Positions 2,707 through 22,843 of a stretch of 22,843 bases of DNA are shown one piece after another. This stretch comes from a virus. Made by a program: the position numbers and the translations under genes. Numbering within the stretch: the first letter of the stretch is position 1; every line of letters starts with the position of its first letter. The notes under the pieces were generated by a model. The model saw only the letters and a program-made list of their open reading frames with translations. It was not told the origin of the DNA and ran no database searches. The DNA is taken from positions 1 to 22,843 of the IMG/VR virus record IMGVR_UViG_3300026097_000113; one strand, given 5' to 3'.

Positions 2707-2969
2707 CAGAAGACATAAAATACTTCCACCCGTATGAAGATATAGATGGAGTTCGTATCTTTAAACCAGATATAAATCAAGACCAGCTTGTTTGGCATAG
2801 GGATTATGAAGATAGAATTTTAGATATTGAACAAAATACAGACTGGAAAATACAGTTTGATAATGAACTACCCATACCAATCAAAAGAGGACTATTTATA
2901 CCTAAAGGAGTTTATCATAGATTAATTAAAGGAAAAAATAGTTTAAAAATTAAGATTAAAAAAATATGA
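2700..2969 (+). CDS. Small cupin-like conserved phage protein (TTG start)
   Basis: 89 residues. The body (LVWHRDYEDR, then FIPKGVYHRLIKG near the C-terminus) resembles a half-cupin: a first His-containing strand and a later PKGxxH strand, as in small cupin-fold proteins of marine T4-like phages (recalled, not searched). There is no ATG in the frame, so the start is placed at TTG 2700, overlapping the previous stop by 7 bp; the start is therefore uncertain. Reinitiation after the upstream gene would fit. It ends in an ATGA overlap with the next gene. Metal binding and enzymatic activity are unproven. Confidence 0.6.
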   Translation: MVTEDIKYFHPYEDIDGVRIFKPDINQDQLVWHRDYEDRILDIEQNTDWKIQFDNELPIPIKRGLFIPKGVYHRLIKGKNSLKIKIKKI

Positions 2970-3373
2970 AACTAATAAAATCATTACTAGAAGGGTGGGA
3001 ACCGGAAAAAAGAACAGTAAACGGAGATGTTACTAAAAGCAAATACACCGGCTTTGCCGATACTCTAGGAGATTTCACTAAAGCTATAAAAAGACTACCA
3101 GATTCTATCGAAAGTATATCCATACCAATCGATACATCCCCGTATAAGTCGTCAAGTAATATGAAGAAAATCACTCCTCAAGGTGATTGGAAAGAAGAGG
3201 TTATCAACCACATTGCTGATCTCAGTAAACAAGTACAAGATGATGGTCAAACTATAGAAGGATATAGCATAAAATCTATGACTCCTGATAAATTTACAGT
3301 TCTAATACATTCAGATAAATCTGAAAAATTTGCCGATGATATGAGTAAAGGTAAGCACGGTTCTTTAGACTAA
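2966..3373 (+). CDS. Hypothetical protein, N-terminal LIKSLLEG helix
   Basis: 135 residues of unknown function. The start MKLIKSLLEG is a short amphipathic helix ending in L-L-E, reminiscent of the N-termini of several other small proteins in this window and of capsid-targeting leaders cleaved by T4 gp21. The rest is hydrophilic, with an alpha/beta-looking C-terminal half (WKEEVINHIADLSKQV, FTVLIHSDKSEKFADDM). The ATG overlaps the stop of the cupin-like gene (ATGA), so translation is probably coupled. It is the last gene before the first large intergenic gap. Confidence 0.55.
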   Translation: MKLIKSLLEGWEPEKRTVNGDVTKSKYTGFADTLGDFTKAIKRLPDSIESISIPIDTSPYKSSSNMKKITPQGDWKEEVINHIADLSKQVQDDGQTIEGYSIKSMTPDKFTVLIHSDKSEKFADDMSKGKHGSLD

Positions 3374-5247: not shown

Positions 5248-6159
5248 ATGGGAGGAAATATATTTGATAAAGCAGCACCGATAAAGAAGGAACATATAGA
5301 ACCGACCTTGGAAATGTTCTACCAGCAATTGGGTTCCGTTTTTCCTAACGCTAAAAAGCATTTCAAAGGTATTCGAACACTAGGTTCAGTAGGTAAAAAA
5401 GACTTCTCAGGAGATATCGATTTAGCATTATCCGGGAAAGTATTTAAAAGAATAGAGGATTGGAATTTAGAAGAAGATAAAACACAGGAACTATTCAAAA
5501 AATTTAAAAAAAGAGCAAGAACAGCTACTGATAAACAACTTATTAAAAGAGCAATTATAGTAGGAATTGCTGATATTTTGGATGCAAGTAATACCGATAT
5601 TAAAGTAGATACTAAAGGTTCTGGTTCTGGTGCATTATTTTTGTCTTTCCCGCAATTTAATGAAGATAAAGAAAAACTACCAGAGGATGTTCAAATTGAT
5701 ATTAACGTAGGAGATGTAGACTGGTTATCTTTTGCTTACTACTCAAGTATATACAAAGGGAACGTAAAAGGTTTACATAGAACTCAATTAATGTTAGCTC
5801 TATTTACTAATAAAGGGTATACTTTTTCACACAATTACGGAGTAAAGAGTAAGGAAACGCAAGAGATTGTAGCGAAAACTCCTAGAGAGGCAATTGAGTT
5901 ACTATCTAACTTATACAACGCCGAGTTTACGGAACAAATATTAGAAGATTATTTTAAACTTTTTGAGTTTTTAAAAAATAACCTCGATAAAGATGAACTA
6001 GAGGATATTTTAGATATCTACATTAAAATACTAGATAGAACTAGAGCAGATGTACCGGAAGACTTGCAAAAATACTGGGTAGATAACCAAGAAAGACTGA
6101 AACTTACCGGTAAATTTCTACCAGACGATTCAAAGTTAGCCCCATTTAAAAACCAGTAG
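5248..6159 (+). CDS. Nucleotidyltransferase (DNA polymerase beta-like fold)
   Basis: 303 residues. The signature of the superfamily is present: TLGSVGKKDFSGDIDLAL, with Gly46-Ser47 and Asp56/Asp58, and a later VQIDINVGD strand where Asp151 is the likely third metal ligand. The C-terminal half (LHRTQLMLALF, then a helical region ending DVPEDLQKYWVDNQERLKLTGKF) looks like the helical domain of a tRNA- or polymer-adding enzyme, but no CCA-adding-specific motif is apparent. From memory, similar proteins occur in marine T4-like phages without known substrate. It opens a transcription unit and is followed after one base by a gene whose N-terminus is a second nucleotidyltransferase. The substrate is unknown; an RNA end or small nucleotide is possible. 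Confidence 0.7.
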   Translation: MGGNIFDKAAPIKKEHIEPTLEMFYQQLGSVFPNAKKHFKGIRTLGSVGKKDFSGDIDLALSGKVFKRIEDWNLEEDKTQELFKKFKKRARTATDKQLIKRAIIVGIADILDASNTDIKVDTKGSGSGALFLSFPQFNEDKEKLPEDVQIDINVGDVDWLSFAYYSSIYKGNVKGLHRTQLMLALFTNKGYTFSHNYGVKSKETQEIVAKTPREAIELLSNLYNAEFTEQILEDYFKLFEFLKNNLDKDELEDILDIYIKILDRTRADVPEDLQKYWVDNQERLKLTGKFLPDDSKLAPFKNQ

Positions 6160-6160
6160 A

Positions 6161-8170
6161 ATGTCAGGAGTAGCAGGAGGAAATCGAATAGAAAAAGCAG
6201 ACGTACAGAGAACTTTTGACAAATATGTCAAAGATATTCTAGAAAAGATAGACGGGTTTAAAAAAGCTTCTCTATCTGGAAGTGTTAAAGTAGGTACTAA
6301 ACCAGACTACGGAGACTTAGACATTATCACACACTTTGAAGGGGACGACAAAAGAGAAGTTAAAAAAAGAATCATATCACTAGTCAAATCTAAATCTAAT
6401 GATACAATTGTTCCTTTCAAAAGTGAGAAATACGAAGGTAGAAAATATTACAATTCTGGTGAAATAATCACAGTACTTTTTCCTATCGTAGGTAAAGAAG
6501 ATGAGTATATACAAGTAGATAATATAATCGCTTTGTCAGAGGAAGAACATAGTTTTAAAAACAATTTTTTAGACGTACCTGCCGAAAAACAAGGTTTGAT
6601 CCTAGGATTAGCAAAAATAATACTACTTGAAGAAGTACCAGAGAAAGTCTTCGAAAGAATGGGAATCACCGATATTCCTTCACTTGAAGAGGATGAGGAA
6701 TTAGAATTCAATCTAAGTTCAAATAAATTAACTCTAAGAAAAGTTAAGCTAAAGGACTTTAAAACCGTTCGAAAAGAGGAAATATGGTCTTCAACAAATT
6801 GGGGACTAATAGAGAAATTATTTGAGAATTTTAATATCGAAGGCACATTTGAAGAACTTCTAAAAGATATAAAAAATAAGGTACGTAATCCTAGATCAAA
6901 AAATAGAATAAAGGGTATATTTAGAAGCATGGTTAGTGTAAAGTCCGGAGAAGTAGGTACTCCTAAGGGAGATAATAAGGAAAAAGCCTTAAAAGCAGTT
7001 GACCTTTTACTTGAAAGAGGGTTAGGGAAAACTGTAGCATTATACGCAGGAGGATTTAAACCGCCTCATAAAATACATTTTACTAATGCAGAGATACTAG
7101 GTTCAAAAGCAGATAAATTAATAATTTTCATAGGTCCTAAGATTAGAGAAGGAGTTAAAATTACACCCGAACAATCTAAAGATATATGGCAAATCTACAA
7201 TATGTATTTAAATGTACCTGTTGAAATAATTGTAAGCAAAGTATCCCCTATTAGAGACCTTTACGAATGGGTTGATGAAAATAAAGTAGAATTTGACAAT
7301 ATAGTAACAGGGACTATAAAATCTGAAAGCGGAAAATTTAAATATTTTGAAAAAAATAAAGAGAAATATAAGAATGTAGATATAGTAACATTGCCTGAAG
7401 TGAGAATCGAAGATAATAAATTCTCAGCTACATCTATTAGAAACTCTAAAGAATACACACTTTCAGGTAAATGGATTCCTAACTCAGTTTCTACTCAAGA
7501 CAGGAAGAAAGTAGTAGATATAGCACTTAGAAACGCCCCTAACGAAAAAGAAATAAATATGCAGGAAGAATTAAATAACGCTTTAAATTCTATATTTGAA
7601 ACTAATGAAGACAGTATTAACGAAGGTTCATCAGGAACTCATATAGGACATAACAGCGTTACAAGATCAGAAAACAGAGCTGAATTAGTTAATGCTTACG
7701 AAATTTTATCAAACACCCTAGACCAAGAAAATTTCGATATTAACTTTAACCAAGACCATATTATAGTAAAAGTTAGGCAAGAAGGTGAAAAACTTAATTT
7801 CGATTATACACCTTATATGTCTTCAATTTTAGAGCATATGATTGATGAAGGAATGAATATTATTCCTTTACCTGAGGTGAAGATAAGGAAAGATATAGCA
7901 GAATCTGCCAACTTTTTCGGTAGAACGGCTTACTATAATCCTAATGAAAATACAATAGTTCTATATACTCACAACAGACATCCTAAAGATGTGATGAGAT
8001 CTTTTGTACATGAAATGATTCATCATACTCAAAATTTAGAAGGAAGAATCAAAGAGATTAGAACAGCTGATACAAACGAAAGCAACATTCTATTAGAACT
8101 AGAAAAAGAAGCATACCTTCAAGGAAATATAACATTCAGGAATTGGGAAGATAAAGTTAAGAATTCATAA
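6161..8170 (+). CDS. Three-domain fusion: nucleotidyltransferase, HxxH nucleotidylyl transferase, HExxH metallopeptidase
   Basis: 669 residues with three enzyme-like modules. (1) Residues 35-130: SLSGSVKVG and DYGDLDIITHF give the Gly-Ser and Asp52/Asp54 of a pol-beta-type nucleotidyltransferase, with Asp120 (YIQVDN) a likely third ligand. (2) Residues 290-445: LYAGGFKPPHKIHF carries the phosphate-binding HxxH (His303, His306; Ile replaces the usual Gly of HxGH), with SPIRDLYEW and SATSIRNS (422-429), the equivalent of the ISSTxIR motif of adenylyl/cytidylyl transferases such as NMNAT. (3) Residues 500-669: FVHEMIHH (HExxH at 617-621), with a likely third zinc ligand in LEKEAYLQ (Glu650). A linker at 465-500 includes SINEGSSG, a possible prohead protease site. 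The biological role is unknown. It is flanked by another nucleotidyltransferase and another HExxH protein. Confidence 0.7.
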   Translation: MSGVAGGNRIEKADVQRTFDKYVKDILEKIDGFKKASLSGSVKVGTKPDYGDLDIITHFEGDDKREVKKRIISLVKSKSNDTIVPFKSEKYEGRKYYNSGEIITVLFPIVGKEDEYIQVDNIIALSEEEHSFKNNFLDVPAEKQGLILGLAKIILLEEVPEKVFERMGITDIPSLEEDEELEFNLSSNKLTLRKVKLKDFKTVRKEEIWSSTNWGLIEKLFENFNIEGTFEELLKDIKNKVRNPRSKNRIKGIFRSMVSVKSGEVGTPKGDNKEKALKAVDLLLERGLGKTVALYAGGFKPPHKIHFTNAEILGSKADKLIIFIGPKIREGVKITPEQSKDIWQIYNMYLNVPVEIIVSKVSPIRDLYEWVDENKVEFDNIVTGTIKSESGKFKYFEKNKEKYKNVDIVTLPEVRIEDNKFSATSIRNSKEYTLSGKWIPNSVSTQDRKKVVDIALRNAPNEKEINMQEELNNALNSIFETNEDSINEGSSGTHIGHNSVTRSENRAELVNAYEILSNTLDQENFDINFNQDHIIVKVRQEGEKLNFDYTPYMSSILEHMIDEGMNIIPLPEVKIRKDIAESANFFGRTAYYNPNENTIVLYTHNRHPKDVMRSFVHEMIHHTQNLEGRIKEIRTADTNESNILLELEKEAYLQGNITFRNWEDKVKNS

Positions 8171-8173
8171 CAT

Positions 8174-8545
8174 ATGAAAAAAAAGGTTACACCAGAAGAA
8201 TTAGTAGAAATAACATCGAAAGTTCTAACAGAAGTAGAAAATACATACGGGTTTTCAAATTACCAACCTTCACTACCTCACATATATTTGAGTGGTGATG
8301 ACATAGATGGAACAAAAGGGGAATATTGTTTCATTATTAATGAAATTACCTTATATTACACAAATATTAATAGCATGGAAGAATTAATTAAAACATTAAT
8401 TCACGAATACCAGCACTACTTACAATCACCTTCCTGGTTTACCAGGTACTACAATATGGGATACTCTTACAACGACCACCCTTATGAAGTACAAGCTTAT
8501 AAAGAGGAAGAAAAATGGGAAAAGATATGGAAAAAAGTCTCGTAG
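8174..8545 (+). CDS. Small HExxH zinc metallopeptidase-like protein
   Basis: 123 residues, essentially one domain. LIHEYQHYLQ provides HExxH (His77, Glu78, His81), and HPYEVQA 24 residues later supplies a probable third ligand, Glu105. A strand (EITLYYTN) precedes the active-site helix, as in gluzincin-type minimal proteases. The layout N-x-I-x-L-Y then HExxH closely parallels the C-terminal module of the upstream fusion protein, so the two may be paralogues. It starts 3 bp after the fusion gene and runs 31 bp into the HAD gene. No signal peptide is present, so it acts inside the cell or virion. The substrate is unknown; processing of a phage structural or lysis protein is one possibility. 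Confidence 0.65.
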   Translation: MKKKVTPEELVEITSKVLTEVENTYGFSNYQPSLPHIYLSGDDIDGTKGEYCFIINEITLYYTNINSMEELIKTLIHEYQHYLQSPSWFTRYYNMGYSYNDHPYEVQAYKEEEKWEKIWKKVS

Positions 8546-9692: not shown

Positions 9693-10040
9693 ATGGATCA
9701 AAAACAACTACTTGAACAAGTACTATTAGAACTCTCATTAATAAAGAATGGAATTCCTAACGGAGAGTTAAAGCAGGTTACAGATTCGGTTAAAGATATA
9801 AAAGAAGATATTGCTGACCTAAAAAGGCTATTACTAAATCCTGAGAAAGGGGTAATAGTTAAAGTAAATAAAAATACTGAATTTAGAGAGGAAAGAGAGG
9901 CTGAATCAAGTACTAACTTTAAAAATATACAAGACCTTCAAGACTTAAAAGCATGGAAGGATACTGTTACTAAAGCACTCTGGATAATCTTTTCTGCACT
10001 AATAGGGATTGTAGTAAAAATCATATTTTTCAATGAATAA
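9693..10040 (+). CDS. XhlA/holin-like small membrane protein
   Basis: 115 residues. Residues 1-90 are charged and helical with heptad-like spacing (DSVKDIKEDIADLKRLLL; LQDLKAWKDTVTK), and a single hydrophobic span at about 95-113 (ALWIIFSALIGIVVKIIFF) ends almost at the C-terminus. A coiled coil plus one C-terminal membrane helix is the architecture of hemolysin XhlA-type proteins, which act with holins at lysis. It heads a unit of small proteins that otherwise look virion-associated. Lysis function is inferred from architecture alone; a membrane anchor for another phage protein is possible. It overlaps the next gene by 8 bp. Confidence 0.6.
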   Translation: MDQKQLLEQVLLELSLIKNGIPNGELKQVTDSVKDIKEDIADLKRLLLNPEKGVIVKVNKNTEFREEREAESSTNFKNIQDLQDLKAWKDTVTKALWIIFSALIGIVVKIIFFNE

Positions 10041-10581
10041 ACCTAAAAACAGTAAAAAGAAGGGAATGACAGCTTTTATGAGAGAGCTTGTAAAAGAGGT
10101 TCTATCTGAAAAAAAGAAAGGAATTGACGGCAAAGCCTGCTGGAAAGGTTATAGATACGGTGGAACGAAAGACGGTAAAGATATATGTACTAAAGTCAAA
10201 AAACCTAAAAACGAATCGATTAAGAAAGAAACTAAAGAGGCTCCTAAAGGACATTATTTTACTAAATCTGGGAATTTGGTCAAAGGTAGAATGACTGCAG
10301 CTGCAAAAGAAAGAGGTGCACGTAAAAGCGATCCAAAAGACAACCAAAGATCTAAAGTACCTCCAGTTACTCAATATACCGAAACTGCTGATCCGCAAGA
10401 TGGCAAAGCTGCACCATATGGTTCCGGATTTAAAAAAGCCTCTAATAAGAGCCTTAAGGAGCAAAAAGCAACATGCTGTGGTAGATGCGGTAGGGTACAC
10501 TTACCTAAAAGCAAAGGAGGGGATGGATGTAAAAAGCCTTACTTATCTAAATCGTCTCCTAAACATTGTAAGAATAAGTAA
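10033..10581 (+). CDS. Basic Cys-rich protein, possible packaged internal head protein
   Basis: 182 residues, very rich in Lys with few acidic residues. After a basic start comes FMRELVKEVLSEKKKG (15-30), an amphipathic helix ending in L-S-E. Then GKACWKGYRYGG (33-44), a motif I recall from marine phage structural proteins; a segment HYFTKSGNLVKGRMTAAAKERGARKSDP; and a C-terminal cluster ATCCGRCGRVH plus GDGC and KHC (Cys148, 149, 152, 166, 179), likely metal-binding. The charge suggests DNA binding. Together with the leader-like helix this suggests a T4 internal-protein-like role, entering the prohead, being trimmed by the protease and travelling with the DNA. This is inference. Confidence 0.55.
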   Translation: MNKPKNSKKKGMTAFMRELVKEVLSEKKKGIDGKACWKGYRYGGTKDGKDICTKVKKPKNESIKKETKEAPKGHYFTKSGNLVKGRMTAAAKERGARKSDPKDNQRSKVPPVTQYTETADPQDGKAAPYGSGFKKASNKSLKEQKATCCGRCGRVHLPKSKGGDGCKKPYLSKSSPKHCKNK

Positions 10582-10582
10582 T

Positions 10583-11056
10583 ATGAAAATAAAAGAAGTT
10601 GTAAAAGATCTAGTCAAAGAAGGTAAATTATCTGATTACGGAGATAACAATACCCCTGCAGCTCTGAGAAAAGAAATAGAGATTGAAGGAGAAAAAGTTA
10701 AACCTGAAGACGCTATTACCGACCTAGACTTGAATACTTTAAGCAGAAACCAGACCATTAAAGAGTATAGATACGGACCATTAAATCCTAACGATAAAGA
10801 AGGTACTCTAGAATTTTGGCAAGATAAAGCTAAAATGTGGAATACTTCAATTAAACATGCTAAAACAGCTAGATGTAGCAACTGTGCCGCTTTTGATCAA
10901 AAACCCGGTACTATAGAAAAGATTGCATCTGCTATAGGAGAGGATGGTGAAGAGATTGTAAAAAAAGCTGATCTAGGGTTTTGTGAATTTTTCTGGTTTA
11001 AATGTGCTGGAGCTAGAACCTGTGATGCATGGGTTGGTAAACAAAAAAAAGAATAG
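10583..11056 (+). CDS. Cys-rich protein, possible HiPIP-like Fe-S domain
   Basis: 157 residues from ATG 10583, one base after the previous stop. An in-frame extension back to 10316 exists but overlaps the upstream gene and looks like shadow sequence, so it was not used. The N-terminus MKIKEVVKDLVKEGKLSD resembles the leader helices of neighbouring proteins. The C-terminal domain has ARCSNCAAF (Cys98, Cys101), GFCEFFWFKC (Cys134, Cys141) and ARTCDAWV (Cys147). The order C-x2-C, C, C with aromatic residues recalls high-potential iron-sulfur proteins; a structural zinc site is the alternative. From memory, similar domains occur in marine T4-like phages. Function is unknown. Confidence 0.6.
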   Translation: MKIKEVVKDLVKEGKLSDYGDNNTPAALRKEIEIEGEKVKPEDAITDLDLNTLSRNQTIKEYRYGPLNPNDKEGTLEFWQDKAKMWNTSIKHAKTARCSNCAAFDQKPGTIEKIASAIGEDGEEIVKKADLGFCEFFWFKCAGARTCDAWVGKQKKE

Positions 11057-11382
11057 TGAAAAAATTAGAGTTATCAAAATTAATAAAAGAAGTATTATCC
11101 GAAACCATACGTAAGGTAGATGGTAAATATGTTGTATATCCTGAGAATGGCGGTGAGAGATTAGGTACTCATAATACCCGTAAAGAAGCAGAAGATCAGC
11201 TCACAGCTATACATCTTAATAAAGAATCAAACGACTATCAACCAAGAAATCCAGGAATACTAAAAAAGAGATTAGGAAATTTGTCCTGTACTAAAGTACG
11301 TAAAGAGAGACAAGGTCTTAAAGATAAAGGAACTACTTATGCTAAAGCACTTCAAAGATACTTAAACTACCACTGCCAATGA
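11056..11382 (+). CDS. Small basic phage protein with LIKEVLSE leader (GTG start)
   Basis: 108 residues. The GTG at 11056 shares its G with the upstream TAG stop (TAGTG), pointing to coupled translation. The N-terminus MKKLELSKLIKEVLSE is the clearest example of the amphipathic leader repeated in this region. It is followed by KYVVYPENGGERLGTHNTRKEAEDQLTAI (24-52), which looks like a small beta-hairpin/helix module seen in other phage proteins, and a basic C-terminus ending in YLNYHC. It is probably a virion-internal or prohead-associated protein, by leader and context. Confidence 0.6.
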   Translation: MKKLELSKLIKEVLSETIRKVDGKYVVYPENGGERLGTHNTRKEAEDQLTAIHLNKESNDYQPRNPGILKKRLGNLSCTKVRKERQGLKDKGTTYAKALQRYLNYHCQ

Positions 11383-12050: not shown

Positions 12051-13460
12051 ATGACATATAGTGAGATAAAAGAGAAATTAAATAAATGTGAACTAGTACT
12101 GACAAAGATTAGAAACGAGGAAAACTCCGGACAACTTTCAGCTAGCTTACAGGAAAAAAAAAGCAAGATACTCATGCTGAGAGAGAATTTAAACAAGGAA
12201 TTAAAAATCTTAAACGAGGAGAAAGGTATAGTATCTACAGATGATCCGGATGATGCAGAAGACTTAGCAAAAAAAGGAATCAACGTCAAATTGACTAACG
12301 AAGAAGAAAATGGAGTAGAATTCTCGAAAGAGGAAACTAAAAATATTGCTAAAGAAACCGGACGTGCTTTAATCTTAGCTTTAAGAGAGGCAGGTGATGA
12401 GATAGATACAATAAAAGCACACAATATAGAGCCAAACTCATTTGAAATCTACGTTAAATATAAGAACGACTTTGAAGATGATTTCTCTTTTTACATAGAT
12501 AAAGATAATTTACACCTTGTAGATTTTAGTTTTGACAAAGAAATAGGTGAAATCGGGATCAAACCATCAGGAGAAGCAATAATACATGATGATTTAATCA
12601 AAAATAATCTTCTGAAGCATTTTAGATCATTAAATGAACAGGATAGTAAGGGTAGTAAGTATATTACACTTCTAGATATGTTCAAAAATGCTCCAATGGC
12701 TAAAAAAATTGAACTCAAGCCAAAATTAGAGAAAGCAGCCAAGCAATTAGGGATTAAGTTAGATTTATCAGGACCTGCCGGTATATATAAAGAAGGGAGA
12801 GATTTAGATGTAGGACATCAAGATGATGAACCCGGTATGTTAAAAAGATATGTTTATGATTCTGCAGTATATGCTGCTAAACTCTATAAAAGCCTAAACA
12901 GATATGATCAAATAGAAGGTGAAGTAGATTTTCCTAATTGGTGGCAAGAAAAGGTTATGAGAGCTAGAGAGGATCTTTCAAAAGCTCAACATTACTTAGA
13001 ATTTGAAGAAAAACAACCATTCTTAGACCAGCTTGCTTTAGAGGAAAGTAAAACGATTAAGGAAATAAAATCATTCGAAGAATCCGGGTTAATGATTGTA
13101 GGTAGAACTCAATTAGATAATACCGAAATAGAACACGTTTTAGATGAGTTAGGTTTACACGGGGAATGGAATGCAAGAGAAGGGTACTGGCATCTCCCTG
13201 AAGAAGAAGAGAATTATGATGAATTAGAAAAAATACTTCAAAAGAAATTTGATGAAAGGGATATTAATGCATATTTTGAAGGTATATTTGAAAACGTTAT
13301 AAGGGAAGAGTTTAAGCCAAATGTTGCCCCTGGTTCTACTTATGCAATAGAGGTAAAAGATGCCGGAAACAAAATCAGTCTCACTCAAGACAATAATCAA
13401 GAAATTGTAGTACATAAAGAAGATGTTGACCAGCTTATAGAGACATTAAAAAAGATATAA
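12051..13460 (+). CDS. Probable structural/head-associated multidomain protein
   Basis: 469 residues, mostly charged. The N-terminal 60 residues are a predicted coiled coil (KLNKCELVLTKIRNEE...). A middle alpha/beta region ends at SLNEQDSKGSK, where L-N-E (194-196) in a linker could be a protease site. Residues from about 251 (DLDVGHQDDEPGMLKR, YDSAVYAAKLYKSL, VDFPNWWQEKVMRARE, KAQHYLEFEE) form a module I recall from many marine T4-like phage proteins of unknown role, often near head genes. The C-terminal part has a WNAREGYWHLPEEEE segment. It begins the unit that ends with the terminase. A structural role is inferred from context. Confidence 0.55.
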   Translation: MTYSEIKEKLNKCELVLTKIRNEENSGQLSASLQEKKSKILMLRENLNKELKILNEEKGIVSTDDPDDAEDLAKKGINVKLTNEEENGVEFSKEETKNIAKETGRALILALREAGDEIDTIKAHNIEPNSFEIYVKYKNDFEDDFSFYIDKDNLHLVDFSFDKEIGEIGIKPSGEAIIHDDLIKNNLLKHFRSLNEQDSKGSKYITLLDMFKNAPMAKKIELKPKLEKAAKQLGIKLDLSGPAGIYKEGRDLDVGHQDDEPGMLKRYVYDSAVYAAKLYKSLNRYDQIEGEVDFPNWWQEKVMRAREDLSKAQHYLEFEEKQPFLDQLALEESKTIKEIKSFEESGLMIVGRTQLDNTEIEHVLDELGLHGEWNAREGYWHLPEEEENYDELEKILQKKFDERDINAYFEGIFENVIREEFKPNVAPGSTYAIEVKDAGNKISLTQDNNQEIVVHKEDVDQLIETLKKI

Positions 13461-14053
13461 TGAATAAAAAGCAAATAAAAGAAATAATTAAGCAAGCATA
13501 CTTGGAAATTCTTTTAGAACAAGATATAGCACCAGAAGAGCAAGGAGATCCTGATGCAAGTGATGAAACTGTACTTGAAGATGCTACCGATACGATCCTT
13601 GAAAAGTTCCCTACTGTTAGAAAAATTCTTACTAAACTAATGACTGAGGACTTTAAAGAGTTTGTAGAAACAATAAATTGGATATCACCTAAACCTACAT
13701 CTTTTAGAATAGTTTTGAAAAACGGTCAAGATTTCGACTTAACATGGATGGGTAAGAATTTTCAAGCAACTATTTTAGGAAAAGATTACTTTTTAGGAAA
13801 AGTTAACGAATTTCAACAAGCTCTTGACAAACTAGGAGTATTGTATCAAGAAGCACCAATGTCTGGTGCTGGAGAAGAAGAACCATTAGATAGTGAATTC
13901 GGCGGTGATGCCGGAGGTGGCGGTGGTGGTGGAGATTTTCCTGGAGACGAACCAGCCGGTGGAGAATTCGACGAACCAGCAGGAGAAGAGGGCGGTGAAG
14001 ATCTAGGAGACGCAGAAATAGATTTTGAAGAACCAGCAGAAGAACCAGAATAA
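13460..14053 (+). CDS. Acidic phage protein with Gly-rich C-terminal tail
   Basis: 197 residues. The N-terminus MNKKQIKEIIKQAYLEILLEQD is an amphipathic leader ending in L-L-E. A compact domain (residues 50-131) contains FVETINWISPKPTSFRIVLKNG and WMGKNFQATILGKDYFLGKV (from residue 68 onward), probably a beta-rich fold conserved in related phages by my recollection. The last 60 residues are low complexity: a run of seven Gly in GGDAGGGGGGGDFPGD, then repeated acidic EEPAG segments, strongly negative. An acidic tail could mimic DNA or fill the prohead core. Its ATG overlaps the previous stop by one base (TAATG). Function unknown. Confidence 0.55.
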   Translation: MNKKQIKEIIKQAYLEILLEQDIAPEEQGDPDASDETVLEDATDTILEKFPTVRKILTKLMTEDFKEFVETINWISPKPTSFRIVLKNGQDFDLTWMGKNFQATILGKDYFLGKVNEFQQALDKLGVLYQEAPMSGAGEEEPLDSEFGGDAGGGGGGGDFPGDEPAGGEFDEPAGEEGGEDLGDAEIDFEEPAEEPE

Positions 14054-15286: not shown

Positions 15287-16864
15287 ATGGCAAAACAGGA
15301 CATTAAAAAAATAATAGCACAGGAATACTTAAAATGTAAAAAAGATCCTGTATACTTTATGAAGAAGTATTGCTATATACAACATCCTCAAAGAGGTAGA
15401 ATTCTTTTCAATCTCTACCCATTTCAAGATGAAGTACTCACTAGATTTAAAGAAGAGAAATTTATAATTACTTTAAAATCTAGACAGTTAGGAATATCAA
15501 CACTATCAGCAGGATATTCTTTATGGTTAATGATTTTCCATAAAGATAAAAATATCTTAGCATTAGCAACAACTCAAGCTACTGCTAGAAACCTTGTGTC
15601 TAAAACGATATTCATGTATGATCAACTACCTAAATGGTTGAGACTATCTCATGTTGAGAAAAATAAACTATCGTTAAGACTTAAAAATGGTTCAAAAATA
15701 CAAGCTAAATCATCTAATACGGATGCTGCTAGATCTGAAGCTGTATCCTTACTATTAATAGATGAGGCAGCGTTTATCGATAATATTGAAGAGACGTTTA
15801 CAGCTGCACAACAAACATTAGCTACAGGTGGACAATGTATGGCTTTATCAACTCCTAACGGTATTGGTAACTGGTTCCATAAAACTTGGGTAAAAGCGGA
15901 AGAAGGACAAAATTCATTCTTACCGATAAGACTTCCATGGACAGTTCATCCTGAGAGAGATCAAGCCTGGAGAGATGAACAGGATAGAGACCTAGGACCT
16001 AGGTATGCCGGTCAAGAATGTGATTGTGATTTCCTAGCATCTGGAGACACTGTATTTGAACCTGATGACTTAGCATTTTTTGAACAGACATATGTTACAG
16101 ACTGTGCTGAAAGACGAGGATTAGATAATAATTTATGGATTTGGGAACAACCAGACTATACGAAATCTTATATGATTGTTGCCGATGTTGCAAGAGGAGA
16201 CGCTACCGATTACTCTGCCTTCCATATCCTAGATTTAGAAACCTGCACACAAGTTGGGGAGTATAAAGGTAAACTTCCACCAAAAGATTTCGGAAACGTA
16301 CTAGTAGGAATAGGTTCTGAATATAACGATGCATTACTGGTTGTAGAAAATGCAAATATAGGCTGGTCTACTATAGAACAGATTCAAGAAAGACAGTATA
16401 AGAATTTATACCATAGTGCTAAATCAAATACCGAAACAGTCGAGTCGTATATGCAAAAATACGAACGAGATAAACTTACCCCAGGATTCAACATGAATCT
16501 AAGAACTAGACCTCTTGTTATTGCTAAAATGATGGAATATGTAAGAGAAAGATCTACTACTATCCAATCAAAAAGGCTTCTTGAAGAGATGAGAGTATTT
16601 ATATGGAAGAACAGCAAAGCTCAAGCACAAGTTGGATATAACGATGACTTGGTTATGGCTTTTGCAATAGGTTTATATGTTAGAGATACAGCTCTAAAAC
16701 TGAGAACAGAAGGTATGAATTTGACTAGAGCTCAATTAAATACATTCTCTACTATGAACGATCGTAGAAATGCAGCAGGAGTTGTTGTTGCTAGTACTAG
16801 AAATAATCCGTATATTACTAAGACAAGGTACGGAGATCATGATCATTCATGGGTACTAAAGTAA
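15287..16864 (+). CDS. gp17: Terminase large subunit (T4 gp17-like)
   Basis: 525 residues. The ATPase has a Walker A-like LKSRQLGIST (63-72), Walker B LLLIDEAAF with Asp159/Glu160, and coupling motif ALSTPNG (186-192). The C-terminal RNase H-like nuclease has IVADVARGDATDYSAF (Asp300), LLVVENANIGW (Glu354) and NDDLVMAFAIGLY (Asp453/454). All elements of the packaging motor are present, so it should pump DNA into the prohead through the portal and cut concatemers. Length is close to T4 gp17 without its N-terminal extension. The frame is uninterrupted, with no intein. It starts 15 bp after the previous gene, and the portal follows. Confidence 0.95.
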   Translation: MAKQDIKKIIAQEYLKCKKDPVYFMKKYCYIQHPQRGRILFNLYPFQDEVLTRFKEEKFIITLKSRQLGISTLSAGYSLWLMIFHKDKNILALATTQATARNLVSKTIFMYDQLPKWLRLSHVEKNKLSLRLKNGSKIQAKSSNTDAARSEAVSLLLIDEAAFIDNIEETFTAAQQTLATGGQCMALSTPNGIGNWFHKTWVKAEEGQNSFLPIRLPWTVHPERDQAWRDEQDRDLGPRYAGQECDCDFLASGDTVFEPDDLAFFEQTYVTDCAERRGLDNNLWIWEQPDYTKSYMIVADVARGDATDYSAFHILDLETCTQVGEYKGKLPPKDFGNVLVGIGSEYNDALLVVENANIGWSTIEQIQERQYKNLYHSAKSNTETVESYMQKYERDKLTPGFNMNLRTRPLVIAKMMEYVRERSTTIQSKRLLEEMRVFIWKNSKAQAQVGYNDDLVMAFAIGLYVRDTALKLRTEGMNLTRAQLNTFSTMNDRRNAAGVVVASTRNNPYITKTRYGDHDHSWVLK

Positions 16865-16889: not shown

Positions 16890-18803
16890 ATGGCAGATAG
16901 AGGATTATTCCAAAGACTGAAAAAAGTATTTTCTTCCGATTCCGTAATAAGGAATGTAGGAGGAAATCAAATTAAAGTTGCAGACATAAATAAAATTCAA
17001 TCAACAGGGAAATACCAAACGAACTCCCTAGTTGACAGGTTCACAAGATTATATATATACAATAACAAAAATATATTTAATCCTAACCTCAATTACCAGA
17101 CATTAAGAATACAGTTATATTCCGATTATGAAGCAATGGATACAGATCCTTTAATTGCATCTACTCTTGATATAATTTCTGATGAAGCTACACTTAAAGA
17201 TGACAGAGGTGAGGTATTATCTATAAACTCATCAGATGAGAACATCCAAAGAATACTTTACAACCTCTTCTATGACGTCCTTAACATAGAATTCAACTTA
17301 TGGTCATGGACTAGAAATATGTGTAAATATGGAGATTTCTTCTTAAAACTAGAAATATCAGAAGAATTTGGAGTATATAACGTACTGCCGTATACAGTAT
17401 ACCATATGGTACGACATGAAGGAATGGATCCATCAAACCCCGCTAAGGTGACATTTCAATTAGATCCCGACGGACTAGCTTCATCACAAGATCCGAATTA
17501 TATTCCAAGAGACAACAGAAAAGTAATTGAATTCGATAATTACGAAATCGCTCATTTTAGATTAATATCAGATACCAATTATCTCCCATATGGAAGATCT
17601 TATATCGAACCAGCTAGAAAGATATTCAAACAACTAACCTTAATGGAAGATGCGATGTTGATACATCGTATAATGAGAGCTCCTGAGAAAAGAATGTTTT
17701 ATGTTAATGTAGGACATATACCTGCTAATGAGGTAGAGCAGTTTATGCAAAAGACTGTTGATGGAATTAAAAAAACTCCTTATGTAGATCCTGAAAATGG
17801 AGAGTATAACCTAAGATTTAATATGCAGAACATGATGGAGGATTTCTACATGCCTGTAAGGGGAGGTGATTCATCAACTAGAATTGAAACAACTAAAGGA
17901 TTAGAGTACGACGGTACAAATGATATCGAGTACTTAAGAGATAAAATGTTTGCTGCATTAAAAGTACCTAAAGCATACTTTGGATACGAAGGTGACTTAT
18001 CAGGTAAAGCTACACTTGCAGCCGAAGATATAAGATTTGCAAGAACAGTTGAAAGGATTCAAAGAATAATGGAATCTGAGTTGACTAAAATTGCTCTAGT
18101 ACACCTATATGCACAAGGGTTTAAAGGAGAGAGTTTAACAAATTTTGAAATTAAACTTACAAATCCTTCTGTAATATTTGAGCAAGAAAAAATAGCTCTT
18201 TTAAAAGAAAAGATAGATCTTGCAGATCAAATGAAATCATCTGGATTATTTCCTTCCGACTACATATACGAGAGACTCTTTGACATATCAGAGGATAAGT
18301 ACATGGAATTTAGAAAACTTATGAGTGAAGATAGCCGTAGAGAATTCAGAAGAAGTCAGATTGAAAACGAAGGTAACGATCCTGCAAAATCAGGTAAGTC
18401 TTACGGAACCCCTCACGATTTAGCTACATTGTATGGTAGAAGAGCCGGTAATGGCGAGAAAGCTCCTATGATGGGAGAAGTTCCAGCAGGATACGAAGAT
18501 CACCCTAAACCGCCTAAACATGGAGAACCTGGACCAGAAGGTGGTAGACCAAAGGAGAGAAAATCTATATACGGAACAAACTCGGCAAACATGGGTAGAG
18601 ATCCATTAGGTAAACATGGAATGAAAGGAGGGTATCCAAGTGATAATGAGAATGTGAGTGAACAGGAAACTAATAACGGATTCACAAAAACCATCTTTAA
18701 TAGAAACTCAGACATTTTTAATATAGATAGCAAACAGCTGATTTTTGAAAAAAATGATTCATTGTTAGATGATGATCTGTTAGATGAAAGAAAACTTAAA
18801 TAG
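16890..18803 (+). CDS. gp20: Portal protein (T4 gp20-like)
   Basis: 637 residues. Characteristic gp20 stretches are present: TDPLIASTLDIISDEAT near the N-terminus, ARKIFKQLTLMEDAMLIHRIMRAPEKRMFYVNVG in the middle, FYMPVRGGDSSTRIETTKG, and DKMFAALKVPKAYFGYEGDLSGKATLAAEDIRFARTVERIQ. The dodecameric portal forms the head vertex through which DNA is packaged and released, and it nucleates prohead assembly. T4 gp20 is roughly 520 residues; here the fold ends near residue 490 and is followed by about 145 residues rich in Gly, Pro and Lys (MMGEVPAGYEDHPKPPKHGEPG) ending LLDDDLLDERKLK. The promoter-like motif just upstream suggests it can be transcribed separately. Confidence 0.95.
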   Translation: MADRGLFQRLKKVFSSDSVIRNVGGNQIKVADINKIQSTGKYQTNSLVDRFTRLYIYNNKNIFNPNLNYQTLRIQLYSDYEAMDTDPLIASTLDIISDEATLKDDRGEVLSINSSDENIQRILYNLFYDVLNIEFNLWSWTRNMCKYGDFFLKLEISEEFGVYNVLPYTVYHMVRHEGMDPSNPAKVTFQLDPDGLASSQDPNYIPRDNRKVIEFDNYEIAHFRLISDTNYLPYGRSYIEPARKIFKQLTLMEDAMLIHRIMRAPEKRMFYVNVGHIPANEVEQFMQKTVDGIKKTPYVDPENGEYNLRFNMQNMMEDFYMPVRGGDSSTRIETTKGLEYDGTNDIEYLRDKMFAALKVPKAYFGYEGDLSGKATLAAEDIRFARTVERIQRIMESELTKIALVHLYAQGFKGESLTNFEIKLTNPSVIFEQEKIALLKEKIDLADQMKSSGLFPSDYIYERLFDISEDKYMEFRKLMSEDSRREFRRSQIENEGNDPAKSGKSYGTPHDLATLYGRRAGNGEKAPMMGEVPAGYEDHPKPPKHGEPGPEGGRPKERKSIYGTNSANMGRDPLGKHGMKGGYPSDNENVSEQETNNGFTKTIFNRNSDIFNIDSKQLIFEKNDSLLDDDLLDERKLK

Positions 18804-18878: not shown

Positions 18879-19739
18879 ATGCGTATAAAACACAGTAAAT
18901 ACAAAAACACAGGACTGATTTTTGAACTCCTGGTAAAACAAATTGCTGCTGATACATTAAGTAAGAAAGATTCTCCTGCTGTACAAATATTAAAAAAGTA
19001 CTTCACAGGGAAGACTGCATTAGTCAGAGAATTCAAACTTTATGATTATATTATAAAGAAAAACAACATACATCAATCTCAAGCAGAAACTATTATATCT
19101 ACTATTATAGAGGTTTCAAAAAAGCTTGACCCGAAAGTTCTCAAAAATCAAAAATATAGCTTGATTAAAGAAATAAAAAAGAACTATAACTTAGACGAAT
19201 TTTTCTCGATCAACACTAGAAACTACAAGCCATTAGCTGCTCTATACTGCCTACTTGAAGCTCACAAATCAGAACAAATCTTTTCAGTTGACGCAGATTT
19301 CCTTATAGATAATAAAACAACTCTACTTGAACACCTAACACAAAGTAAACAAGATAAAGAAAAAGTAAAGGACGCTTTAATTGAAGAATACTCTAAATAC
19401 GATAAGGATCTCAAATTAATTACATTTAGAATACTACTAGAAAAATTTAATTCAAAATATTCTAACCTCTTACCAGAACAGAAAAATATATTAAGAGAAT
19501 TTATAACTTCAGTTAACTCATCTAGTAGGCTAAGGAATTTAGTTAATAACGAATTTTCTAAAATTGTAAAAGAGTTGAAATCGTTATCTCCTAAAGTTGA
19601 TCATAAAATAACATCAATAAAATTAAACGAGATTACAAAAAGTATAAATCAAGTTCCTAAAACTAAAAAAATATCGGATATTCATCTTGTAGACTTAATG
19701 CAGTACTATGAGTTAATAAATGAATTAAAAAGCTTATGA
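18879..19739 (+). CDS. Conserved head-region protein, unknown function
   Basis: 286 residues, largely alpha-helical and Lys-rich. The N-terminus KYKNTGLIFELLVKQIAADTLSKKDSPAVQILKKYF (from residue 7) is a conserved block I recall from marine T4-like phages, located next to the portal gene. No catalytic motif, signal or membrane segment. It occupies the position between gp20 and gp21 where T4 has the prohead core proteins gp67 and gp68, but I see no similarity that would equate them. A prohead core or assembly role is positional inference. It ends in an ATGA overlap with the next gene. Confidence 0.6.
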   Translation: MRIKHSKYKNTGLIFELLVKQIAADTLSKKDSPAVQILKKYFTGKTALVREFKLYDYIIKKNNIHQSQAETIISTIIEVSKKLDPKVLKNQKYSLIKEIKKNYNLDEFFSINTRNYKPLAALYCLLEAHKSEQIFSVDADFLIDNKTTLLEHLTQSKQDKEKVKDALIEEYSKYDKDLKLITFRILLEKFNSKYSNLLPEQKNILREFITSVNSSSRLRNLVNNEFSKIVKELKSLSPKVDHKITSIKLNEITKSINQVPKTKKISDIHLVDLMQYYELINELKSL

Positions 19740-20014
19740 AAATAAGTGAAGTAAATAAACTAGTAAAAGAATTGATGCTGGAAAAAGCTTTAGAGCTTAA
19801 CGAATTAAGCGCAACATCAGCAGGAGGAGCTAGCTTTTCACCGGGAGCAGGAGCTCAATACGCTACTCCAAATGCATTCACCGGTAAAGGGAAGAAAAAT
19901 AAAGCTACTAAATATTTAGAAAAACTAGGATATACAAAAGCAAAGTCTAAAAAAAGACCATATAATACTAAATTATTTGACTACTTACATGAGAACAATA
20001 CAGGAAAAATATAG
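19736..20014 (+). CDS. Small head-region protein with N-terminal leader helix
   Basis: 92 residues. It starts MKISEVNKLVKELMLEKALELNE, an amphipathic helix followed by L-N-E at 21-23 that matches the (L/I)-x-E cleavage preference of T4 gp21-type proteases. Then an Ala/Gly/Ser-rich stretch (SATSAGGASFSPGAGAQYATP) and a very basic C-terminus (GKGKKNKATKYLEKLGYTKAKSKKRP). Size and composition recall T4 internal or core proteins. Candidate packaged protein trimmed at maturation. Overlaps both neighbours. Confidence 0.6.
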   Translation: MKISEVNKLVKELMLEKALELNELSATSAGGASFSPGAGAQYATPNAFTGKGKKNKATKYLEKLGYTKAKSKKRPYNTKLFDYLHENNTGKI

Positions 20015-22157
20015 AGGAGTAATTAACGACAATTACCCTAAAGCGCAGTTTATAAGAGAAGCTAGATTAGAAATGCCTAATTTCATTTCATCTACTAATT
20101 CTTTTGAAGATGTAGTTTCGATTCTAAAAAATAAAGGAGTGTTGACTGAAGAGAAAAAAGAATACTCAAACCCTACACCCGGCTATCCGTTAGAAGCTTT
20201 AGAGAGAGGTATTGATGCTGAATTAGAAGCTAAAGGAGTTAATACAGCTACTGAAACTCCAACAGAAGAGGAATACGATAAAGCGAAAGAAAAGGCTGTA
20301 AAGAATTTAGAAAAAAACCCTAACCACTACCTACATTTAATGTCTGGGGATTCAAATAAAGTTGACAAGCATGATCAATTTAAGGAATTTAAAGATAAGG
20401 ACAAAGTAGATACAATTAATGGATTAAAGAAAGCAAAACTTAACGAAGACTTCGAAGACTACGAAAGACTATCTAGAGAAATCGAATTTAATATCTCATC
20501 AGAGAGAGACGATTTCGATATTGAAACATCATCAGATGATCTCGATAAATTAAAAGACGAGCTTGAAAGTATGGGATACGACGTAGAAGGTATCTTAGCA
20601 AACGGAACTATGGAGGATTTAATCAATTCAGTTTCCAGAGAAGATAAGCAAAGACTATACGGGAGATATGATGTGTTTGATGATTACGGTGACAGTGTAG
20701 ATGAACAAGAAAAAGACATATCAATAGACAAAAAAATATCTGCTAGTAAAGTAATGAGAATTGCCAAACTAGCCGGCAATACAGTACCTGATGCTGAAGA
20801 CGAAATTAAAGAACTAATAATTAGGTTTGGAGAGGAAGTACCTGTTCATAAAGTAAAAGACATACTAAATAACTACGATCTCTCTCAAATGAAACTAAGA
20901 GAAGCCGCTAACATGCAAACTACTAGTAAAATTGGTAAAAGGTACTTAGTAGATATGGGAGATGGTTCACAAGAAAATTTAACAGTAGCTAAGACCTTTG
21001 TTTTTAATCCTCCTAAAGGTAAAAAAGAAAATGGATTCTATTCAAAAGAATATGGAGAAGAGATGGCATTTTTAGATTCAATGATAGTAAAGCCAGTTAA
21101 GGAGGGAATACATGATAGAGACATAACTTCAAACCCTCAAACCAATGCCGGCTTACGTACAGATATATCTCCACAAGAAGAACATATAAGAGGTTATATG
21201 TACATAAGAAAAATTTCCCCTGTATTAAAGAAATATAATGTAAGTTTCAAAGATTTTATTAGAATGGCTGAAACAGATGATTTAACTTCTAAGGAATTAG
21301 ATGATTTAGATTATATTGAAGATAGGATAGAAACTCATTTATCTTTAAGAGAAGCTGTAAACGAAGGAAGAAGACCTAAACTCAAAGGAGGAAAAGCTAT
21401 TAAAGAAAATGATTACGAATCTGGAGGATATGTTGATACAATGGGACCTCAACTAGACTCTGCAATTAATAAGGTATTAAAAGTATGGGATCAGTGGAGA
21501 AACGGTCCTATGACAGAACCAGGTATGATTCCTTTTGCTAAAAAAGATCTAATTGAATACTTTTCTAATAAATTAGAAGAAAAGTTAATGGAAGAAGAAA
21601 AAGCAAATAAAGATTACGACGGAGACGGTAATATAGAATCACCAGAAGACGAGTACTTAGGATCTAGAGACAAAGCTATAAAAGCTAATATGGACGAACA
21701 AGGAGTTGAAAAACTAAAAGAACTATTCAAGAAGTCTATTATTAACATGCTTCAAGAAAATAAGATACCTTTACACGAAGCTAGTACAGAAAACCTAGAA
21801 GAGTTTGTGCATTACGAAAACGAACAAAACGAAGATCTTGCTAGTAGAATCAGAAAAGGAGCAGCAGAATTAGAAGATGTTATTGGGTCTTTAGAGAAAG
21901 AGCACATTAACGTAAGAGAAAAAGTAGAAGGTATTTATAAAGACATAGGATCTTTTATGGCTCCAGCGGTAGCAGCAGCTTTTAAAAAAGACATAGCACC
22001 TGTCCTTAGTAAACTACACAACATAAAAGTACCGAAAGGAAAAAGATTATCACCAGAAGAAATGGAAGAATTGGGAATAGATCCTTCTAGTACTACAGGT
22101 ACAGTGTTTTCGTTAAAAGAAGGTAAAAAAACAAAGTACACTAAAAGAAAAAACTAA
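19989..22157 (+). CDS. Large acidic prohead core/scaffold-like protein with an EF-hand loop
   Basis: 722 residues from ATG 19989, which overlaps the previous gene by 26 bp; an upstream TTG (19977) would add four residues and is less likely. The N-terminus (FIREARLEMPNFISSTNSFEDVVSILKNKG) is a conserved-looking block. Most of the protein is hydrophilic and helical with many Glu/Asp/Lys. DYDGDGNIESPE (542-553) is a textbook 12-residue EF-hand calcium loop, followed by DEYLGSRDKAIKANM. Possible protease sites include KLNED and AVNEG. Its position just before gp21, composition and length suggest a prohead core or scaffold polyprotein, but no similarity to T4 gp22 is claimed. It may be several domains cut apart during maturation. 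Confidence 0.6.
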   Translation: MRTIQEKYRGVINDNYPKAQFIREARLEMPNFISSTNSFEDVVSILKNKGVLTEEKKEYSNPTPGYPLEALERGIDAELEAKGVNTATETPTEEEYDKAKEKAVKNLEKNPNHYLHLMSGDSNKVDKHDQFKEFKDKDKVDTINGLKKAKLNEDFEDYERLSREIEFNISSERDDFDIETSSDDLDKLKDELESMGYDVEGILANGTMEDLINSVSREDKQRLYGRYDVFDDYGDSVDEQEKDISIDKKISASKVMRIAKLAGNTVPDAEDEIKELIIRFGEEVPVHKVKDILNNYDLSQMKLREAANMQTTSKIGKRYLVDMGDGSQENLTVAKTFVFNPPKGKKENGFYSKEYGEEMAFLDSMIVKPVKEGIHDRDITSNPQTNAGLRTDISPQEEHIRGYMYIRKISPVLKKYNVSFKDFIRMAETDDLTSKELDDLDYIEDRIETHLSLREAVNEGRRPKLKGGKAIKENDYESGGYVDTMGPQLDSAINKVLKVWDQWRNGPMTEPGMIPFAKKDLIEYFSNKLEEKLMEEEKANKDYDGDGNIESPEDEYLGSRDKAIKANMDEQGVEKLKELFKKSIINMLQENKIPLHEASTENLEEFVHYENEQNEDLASRIRKGAAELEDVIGSLEKEHINVREKVEGIYKDIGSFMAPAVAAAFKKDIAPVLSKLHNIKVPKGKRLSPEEMEELGIDPSSTTGTVFSLKEGKKTKYTKRKN

Positions 22158-22477: not shown

Positions 22478-22843
22478 ATGAATAATTTATTAGTAGAAGT
22501 ACAACCTTTCAAACCTATAATCCGAGAGTCTAAAGACAAACCGGGAGTATTTGAGGTTGAAGGTGTAATGCAGAGAGCAGGAGCTAAGAACCAAAACGGC
22601 AGAGTATATAAGAAAGAAATTCTTGAAAGAGAGTGTCAAAATTATATCAACGAATTTGTTAAAAAAGGAAATGCTTTCGGAGAATTAGACCATCCAGAGT
22701 CAGCCGTAGTATCTTTAAAAAACGCTTCACATGTAGTGAAAGATTTATGGTGGAAAGGAGACGACCTTATGGGTAAAATTGAACTACTTAACACCCCTTC
22801 AGGTAATATTGTCAAAGAGATTATTAAAGCAGGTCATACAATA
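22478..22843 (+). CDS. gp21: Prohead core protease (T4 gp21-like), N-terminal part
   Basis: 122 residues are visible before the window ends, so the gene is truncated at the 3' side. AKNQNGRVYKKEILERE (37-52) matches the N-x-N-G-R-x-Y block of the herpesvirus-like prohead protease family (S80), and AFGELDHPES (66-75) holds the catalytic His72. The catalytic Ser lies beyond the edge. In T4, gp21 cleaves core, capsid and internal proteins after (L/I)-x-E and then itself, making the space for DNA. This is the enzyme that would act on the leader helices seen in other proteins here. The start ATG 22478 follows an A-rich leader 10 bp after the preceding stop. Confidence 0.9.
   Translation, partial: MNNLLVEVQPFKPIIRESKDKPGVFEVEGVMQRAGAKNQNGRVYKKEILERECQNYINEFVKKGNAFGELDHPESAVVSLKNASHVVKDLWWKGDDLMGKIELLNTPSGNIVKEIIKAGHTI

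Follow-up and report, generated by a model that had tools for sequence, protein, structure and literature searches.

What could a phage gain from joining a nucleotidyltransferase, an HxGH nucleotidylyltransferase and a metallopeptidase in a single chain? The question is raised by one open reading frame (ORF), 6161-8170, of IMG/VR virus record IMGVR_UViG_3300026097_000113, the first 22,843 nucleotides of which constitute the stretch of DNA analysed here (the window). We propose, at what we judge to be even chances, that its product is a modular precursor of enzymes packaged in the head of a T4-type phage for ejection, and that this precursor is cut by the prohead protease. A broader proposal, which we hold tentatively and rate somewhat short of even, is that a whole phage family chains head-cargo enzymes through internal prohead-protease joints, that capsid maturation frees the nucleotidyltransferase (NTase), the HxGH enzyme, one or two zincins and, in some cases, an endoribonuclease for joint ejection, and that the cargo is swapped as in-frame cassettes.

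The three-module observation is confirmed: the structure model, the matches obtained with Foldseek and VIA and the conservation of catalytic residues all agree, and the folds and conserved residues together exclude chance. The initial annotation had located the motifs correctly (D52/D54, HKIH 303-306, SATSIRNS 422-429 and HEMIH 617-621), and the fold prediction and per-domain searches it had called for bore it out. They returned Pol-beta-type, HxGH and zincin folds, the last without Foldseek support, and the catalytic residues are kept in homologues (67 for the NTase and HxGH modules, 41 peptidase modules). The AlphaFold2 model of the whole protein, based on 17 aligned sequences, has a mean predicted local distance difference test (pLDDT) score of 77.6 and three ordered parts, with a disordered linker at residues 480-502 (pLDDT < 50). 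In the PDB, phmmer matched the window protein no better than by chance and profiles A6 and A5 gave no credible match, and the sole relevant Pfam match of the window protein is DUF6782, at an E value of 7.5e-4 and 19.3 bits, below the cut-off of 27.

As modelled, the first module belongs to the Pol-beta superfamily of NTases and has a PolX-like palm bearing the GS, DxD and third-Asp signatures. G40 and S41 of the GS motif are conserved in homologues, while D52, D54 and the third Asp, D120, are invariant in 67 of 67. Structural comparison matches it to polymerase palms, those of Pol beta and lambda at E 2e-5 with Foldseek and that of Pol mu at Z 12.1 over 175 aligned residues with VIA. The Pol beta palm profile, PF14792, has no match in the window protein, and none of the relatives scored reaches its curated cut-off; the best E value among relatives is 5e-5, 5 of 12 members give E <= 0.01, and the subset scored lies at 20.5-22.3 bits against a cut-off of 25. 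The palm helix begins about 10 residues into the protein, and there appears to be no space upstream for the 8-kDa/helix-hairpin-helix DNA-binding domain of DNA polymerase X.

The second module is predicted to be an HxGH nucleotidylyltransferase, with HxGH and SxTxxR motifs set in a Rossmann-like fold. Of the 67 homologues, 66 keep H303 and 65 keep H306, with gaps in the remaining sequences, and the model matches CoaD and NadM at E values of about 1e-4 (Foldseek) and CoaD at Z 13.8 over 146 residues (VIA). The PF01467 cut-off is passed by five of nine relatives and not by the window protein. Since the CoaD, NadM and nicotinamide mononucleotide (NMN) adenylyltransferase (NMNAT) rows of the VIA comparison fall within about 2 Z units, the substrate is left undecided. 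Two specific identities were rejected on architecture: NadR, because Pfam, PHROGs and NCBIfam scans and the model contain no P-loop nicotinamide riboside kinase domain, in place of which the HxGH domain is followed by a linker and then the zincin; and NadM in its NMNAT-Nudix form, because the same three scans detected no Nudix domain.

The HExxH motif and a third zinc ligand, probably E648, identify the modelled third module as a candidate zincin metallopeptidase. H617, E618, H621 and E648 are invariant in all 41 peptidase modules, and the module modelled alone reaches a pLDDT of 83.8. In the VIA comparison its best rows are zincins almost throughout (Wss1, Z 8.6; a DNA-protein crosslink-repair, SprT-type protease, 8.1; PprI, 8.0; ArdC, 7.1), with several families tying among DUF6782 (its Pfam match being sub-threshold), SprT, Wss1, IrrE and ArdC. 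Foldseek returned no match below 1e-3 for this module, so the fold assignment rests on the motif, its conservation and middling Z scores.

The fusion is not peculiar to this phage. Scanning IMG/VR under profile guidance confirmed the polyprotein family at 273 places; a scan of bacterial and archaeal genome contigs detected no relative at the sensitivity used. Flavobacterium phage immuto encodes a family member with the same neighbours (immuto26A_183; QQO91862.1; 907 aa, annotated as NMN adenylyltransferase NadR) that is 56% identical across the full window protein and differs in adding a C-terminal HEIEH peptidase module; literature searches on this phage returned passing mentions only. The order of modules, for which the initial annotation knew of no characterised example, is thus shared with immuto and many uncultured relatives.

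Across the family the NTase and HxGH modules form a constant core and the C-terminal part varies. The core may be followed by nothing (L080, L083 and L098; 470-478 aa), by one zincin (about 640-710 aa) or by two (about 875-975 aa), and the longest members, of up to 1253 aa, carry further modules. Insertions include Zn-ribbons, an endoribonuclease resembling RegB, a DUF6934-like module and a third NTase of cyanophage/Lak type, and L104, L105 and L108 have an extra module that is several hundred residues long. Modules of the RegB-like, DUF6934-like and Zn-ribbon types are found in frame and also as separate genes located a few kb from the polyprotein gene, the N-termini of these separate genes being mostly leader-like, as in MKKNQIREIVKEVLQE or MKLTDIIFEKLNE. 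In the window, a small stand-alone HExxH gene occupies the place of the in-frame second peptidase module of many relatives (Table 1). One Zn-ribbon cassette, CDKCGWSWNVVDGGxDLFICHKCGHDN, appears at varied positions in polyproteins (the C-terminus of L030; the middle of L088, L089 and L092) and in other, stand-alone genes (L036, L053, L105 and L108). Another short cassette, typified by DPQDGKAAPYGSGYK, seems to be mobile and to stay in frame, as it recurs in unrelated proteins of these phages: at 10033-10581 of the window and in the L094, L099 and L026 polyproteins. At 6001-9150 of L073 the coding sequence is divided between two frames; the first stops at 547 aa, and the zincin lies in a second, overlapping ORF from 7583.

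The case for proteolytic processing comes from the joints between modules. T4 gp21 cleaves after L/I-X-E, and the N-terminal capsid targeting sequences of internal proteins span 10-19 residues (PMC9026906). The joints of the family show a pattern like the gp21 site, [LIVMF]xE↓[GASQN] (the arrow marking the bond), more often than shuffled sequences lead one to expect. Counting the motif [LIVM]xE[GASQNT] in representatives of <80% mutual identity against 2000 shuffles, we found it at J1, taken as the 25 residues preceding the HxGH strand, in 20 of 28 sequences (7.5 expected), a count equalled in none of the shuffles. At J3, before the second peptidase, it occurs in 8 of 8 (0.9 expected; 0 of 2000 shuffles); the excess at J2, before the first peptidase, is weaker (8 of 13 against 3.6 expected, reached in 21 of 2000). 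From the alignment, J1 appears notable in that the site persists though its letters vary (LAEA, LSEA, LTEA, LLEQ, LLEN, ILEA, LIEA, FWES and FLEG in relatives), and in L098 the N-terminus of a separate gene, MKKFQDHYFQE↓S, resembles the internal J1 sequence NFVEHYFWE↓S. Conserved sites in the propeptide of the major capsid protein (MCP) of the same lineage (82 sequences) read LxE↓S/G, LLE↓G, I/LxE↓N and V/IxE↓A/Q, and J2 of the window, INE↓G, is a good site of this kind.

Leaders on related proteins point in the same direction. The companion gene immediately upstream encodes NTase1, a probable remote paralogue of module 1 by sequence comparison: a single hhalign comparison gave a probability of 58% and an E value of 1e-4, blastp detected no similarity between the two, and Pfam gave no match for NTase1. 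Of 61 distinct NTase1 homologues, 16 begin with a short, hydrophobic leader that resembles a capsid targeting sequence and ends in hxE↓GGN (h, hydrophobic), for example MISLVGILKDIISE↓GGNVF. Most others, the window copy included, have their initiating Met exactly at the position of the leader Glu, as would be expected after the loss of a cleaved leader.

Stand-alone HxGH proteins of cyanophage type carry T4-like capsid targeting leaders of the form MKxFxxFLxE↓A (MKSFFQFLNE↓A and MKKFSAFLSE↓A are examples); of 48 distinct sequences, 46 have the leader Glu as residue 10. Two proteins of S-CREM2 were detected in virions by mass spectrometry (MS; PMC10665884), namely gp154, which begins MKNFSSFLTE↓A, and gp156, which is homologous to the third NTase of the L026 fusion; detection by MS in virions is likewise reported for HxGH-type proteins of S-SCSM1, S-SZBM1 and S-CBWM1 (PMC9602691, PMC9146016). 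Leaders are not universal among phage HxGH proteins, since none was found on the stand-alone forms of Caulobacter phage Cr30, S-CBWM1, Lak, phiM12 and D479. The leader-bearing cyanophage 'cytidylyltransferase' set comprises viral contigs L199-L283 together with L193 1779-2927, L194 1677-2975 and L198 1109-1969. Cyanophage cytidylyltransferases are often catalogued as auxiliary metabolic genes; a literature search for 'cytitidyltransferase' returned nothing.

Under the proposed mechanism, the precursor would be drawn into the prohead core, where the prohead protease would cut the hxE joints and free the NTase, the HxGH enzyme and the zincin or zincins inside the head. Entry might depend on a partner, such as NTase1 in leader-bearing relatives, or on internal leader-like helices. 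The freed enzymes would then accompany the DNA into the host and work as infection begins. As guesses, the zincin may act on a host protein, the NTase may attach a nucleotide to a protein or to the end of a nucleic acid, and the HxGH enzyme may make nicotinamide adenine dinucleotide (NAD) or another nucleotide adduct.

The genomic setting is largely conserved, with a DnaG-type primase, a PD-(D/E)XK exonuclease, NTase1, the polyprotein and a 5'-nucleotidase. The polyprotein gene is located among late genes; immuto26A_183 lies between the tail spike and terminase genes on the same strand, and the prohead protease of immuto is immuto26A_201. Several other proteins of the late region of the window (2966-3373, 11056-11382, 13460-14053, 19736-20014 and 19977-22157) have possible capsid targeting leaders, with N-termini such as MKLIKSLLE↓G and VKKLELSKLIKEVLSE↓T. 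Elsewhere in the window, 120-530 is a 136-aa ORF with several near-identical repeats of the type TTPQDFKTQPMVxxHS, and 816-1304 has matches to a homing endonuclease family and to phrog_447 'NAD synthetase', a label that may be mistaken, since the sequence looks GIY-YIG-like.

Table 1. Coordinates in the window of the polyprotein, its modules and joints, and neighbouring genes
Feature	Position	Strand	Remarks
Modular polyprotein, NTase - HxGH nucleotidylyltransferase - zincin	6161..8170	+	ATG start, 669 aa, single frame
Module 1, predicted Pol-beta/PolX-palm-like NTase, residues 1-285	6161..7015	+	GS, D52, D54, D120
Joint J1, LLE, residues 283-285	7007..7015	+	Next residue R
Module 2, predicted HxGH nucleotidylyltransferase fold, residues 290-466	7028..7558	+	HKIH 303-306, SATSIR 422-427
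Joint J2, INE↓G, residues 486-488	7616..7624	+	Inside disordered linker
Module 3, small N-terminal subdomain and predicted zincin metallopeptidase, residues 489-669	7625..8167	+	HEMIH 617-621, E648
NTase1, companion nucleotidyltransferase	5248..6159	+	
Small stand-alone HExxH protein	8174..8545	+	123 aa, HEYQH
Terminase large subunit (T4 type)	15287..16864	+	Late-gene context
Portal protein (gp20 type)	16890..18803	+	Late-gene context; phrog_213
gp21-type head maturation (prohead) protease, 5' part	22478..22843	+	Cut by window end; phrog_207, E 6.6e-36

Several observations weigh against the head-cargo precursor. The window protein begins MSGVAGGNRI, and its homologues MSG..GGNRI; it has no T4-type N-terminal leader cleaved at hxE, and the route of the precursor into the head is therefore unexplained. 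About three quarters of NTase1 homologues are likewise leaderless. The motif is short, the shuffle test ignores shared ancestry, and helix ends favour LxE. A scan of the core with the strict motif gives two hot spots, J1 and the IREG of a conserved loop in the HxGH domain; as this loop also matches the motif (19 of 29 sequences), the motif alone is no proof. J1 of the window, LLE↓R, is imperfect, R being unseen at P1' of the conserved MCP sites, and J3 often has M at P3, which is equally unseen there. Turning to virions, the S-CREM2 authors leave co-purification possible (PMC10665884), the virion-detected HxGH protein of S-CBWM1 lacks a leader of the cyanophage type, and no virion proteomics was found for this phage group.

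The missing leader would be readily understood if the protein were a cytoplasmic multifunctional enzyme of the infected cell, active in nucleic-acid end repair or NAD metabolism and never packaged, with the zincin as a regulatory or release domain. The adjoining primase, exonuclease and 5'-nucleotidase genes suit such a role, the HxGH domain is about equally near NadM and CoaD, and the 'NadR' annotation in immuto implies NAD metabolism. Against this, the scans found no kinase (NadR) or Nudix (NadM) domain, and a NadV-type nicotinate phosphoribosyltransferase is absent from the immuto genome record and was found in only 2 of 8 records, which makes NAD salvage less likely as a sole role; the late-gene location and the free gain and loss of modules also speak against a cytoplasmic enzyme, which we consider unlikely overall. 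The related initial suggestion of a nucleotide-conjugating enzyme with a release domain fared poorly, as only the fold assignments favour it and some members have no peptidase.

Less probable still, in our estimate, is a polyvalent-type protein that is either packaged and ejected in one piece or cleaved by one or more metallopeptidases of its own instead of the prohead protease. This idea has a precedent in the polyvalent phage proteins of Iyer et al. 2017, which combine a zincin with other effector domains and for which zincin autoprocessing was proposed (PMC5512222). The J1-type site is, however, retained in the peptidase-less members L080, L081 and L083, and the motif at the joints agrees with the gp21-type site seen in this lineage. 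Of the polyprotein first suggested, cut by its own peptidase or by the prohead protease, cleavage by the latter has indirect, convergent sequence support; cutting by its own peptidase is the less probable alternative.

Among known systems, polyvalent proteins and T4 head cargo are the closest. By its sequence the window protein would qualify as a polyvalent protein, with several enzymatic domains per chain and shuffled architectures in a phage; it shares with those proteins (PMC5512222) the combination of zincin and NTase, the variable architecture and a predicted delivery with DNA, but differs in its HxGH core and prohead-protease-like joints. Likeness to the internal head proteins and Alt of T4 lies in the T4-type portal, MCP, gp21-type protease and hxE sites of the lineage, and in the leaders found on the NTase1 proteins of relatives and on some modules where these stand alone; the differences are several enzymes per chain, internal joint sites and a precursor without an N-terminal targeting sequence. 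The cyanophage cytidylyltransferase/NMNAT-like virion proteins (phrog_395 and phrog_3041) share the HxGH domain, and most have the hxE↓A leader at residue 10 in addition to the MS reports, but they stand alone, without NTase and peptidase modules, and their sequence similarity is weak. If the head-cargo precursor is correct, T4-type capsid targeting would be linked to polyvalent proteins, and virion-carried enzymes could be sought by a sequence rule, the presence of hxE↓[GAS] either behind a short leader or where two domains meet. The 'auxiliary metabolic' cyanophage cytidylyltransferases would then be reread as head cargo, in keeping with their repeated detection in virions.
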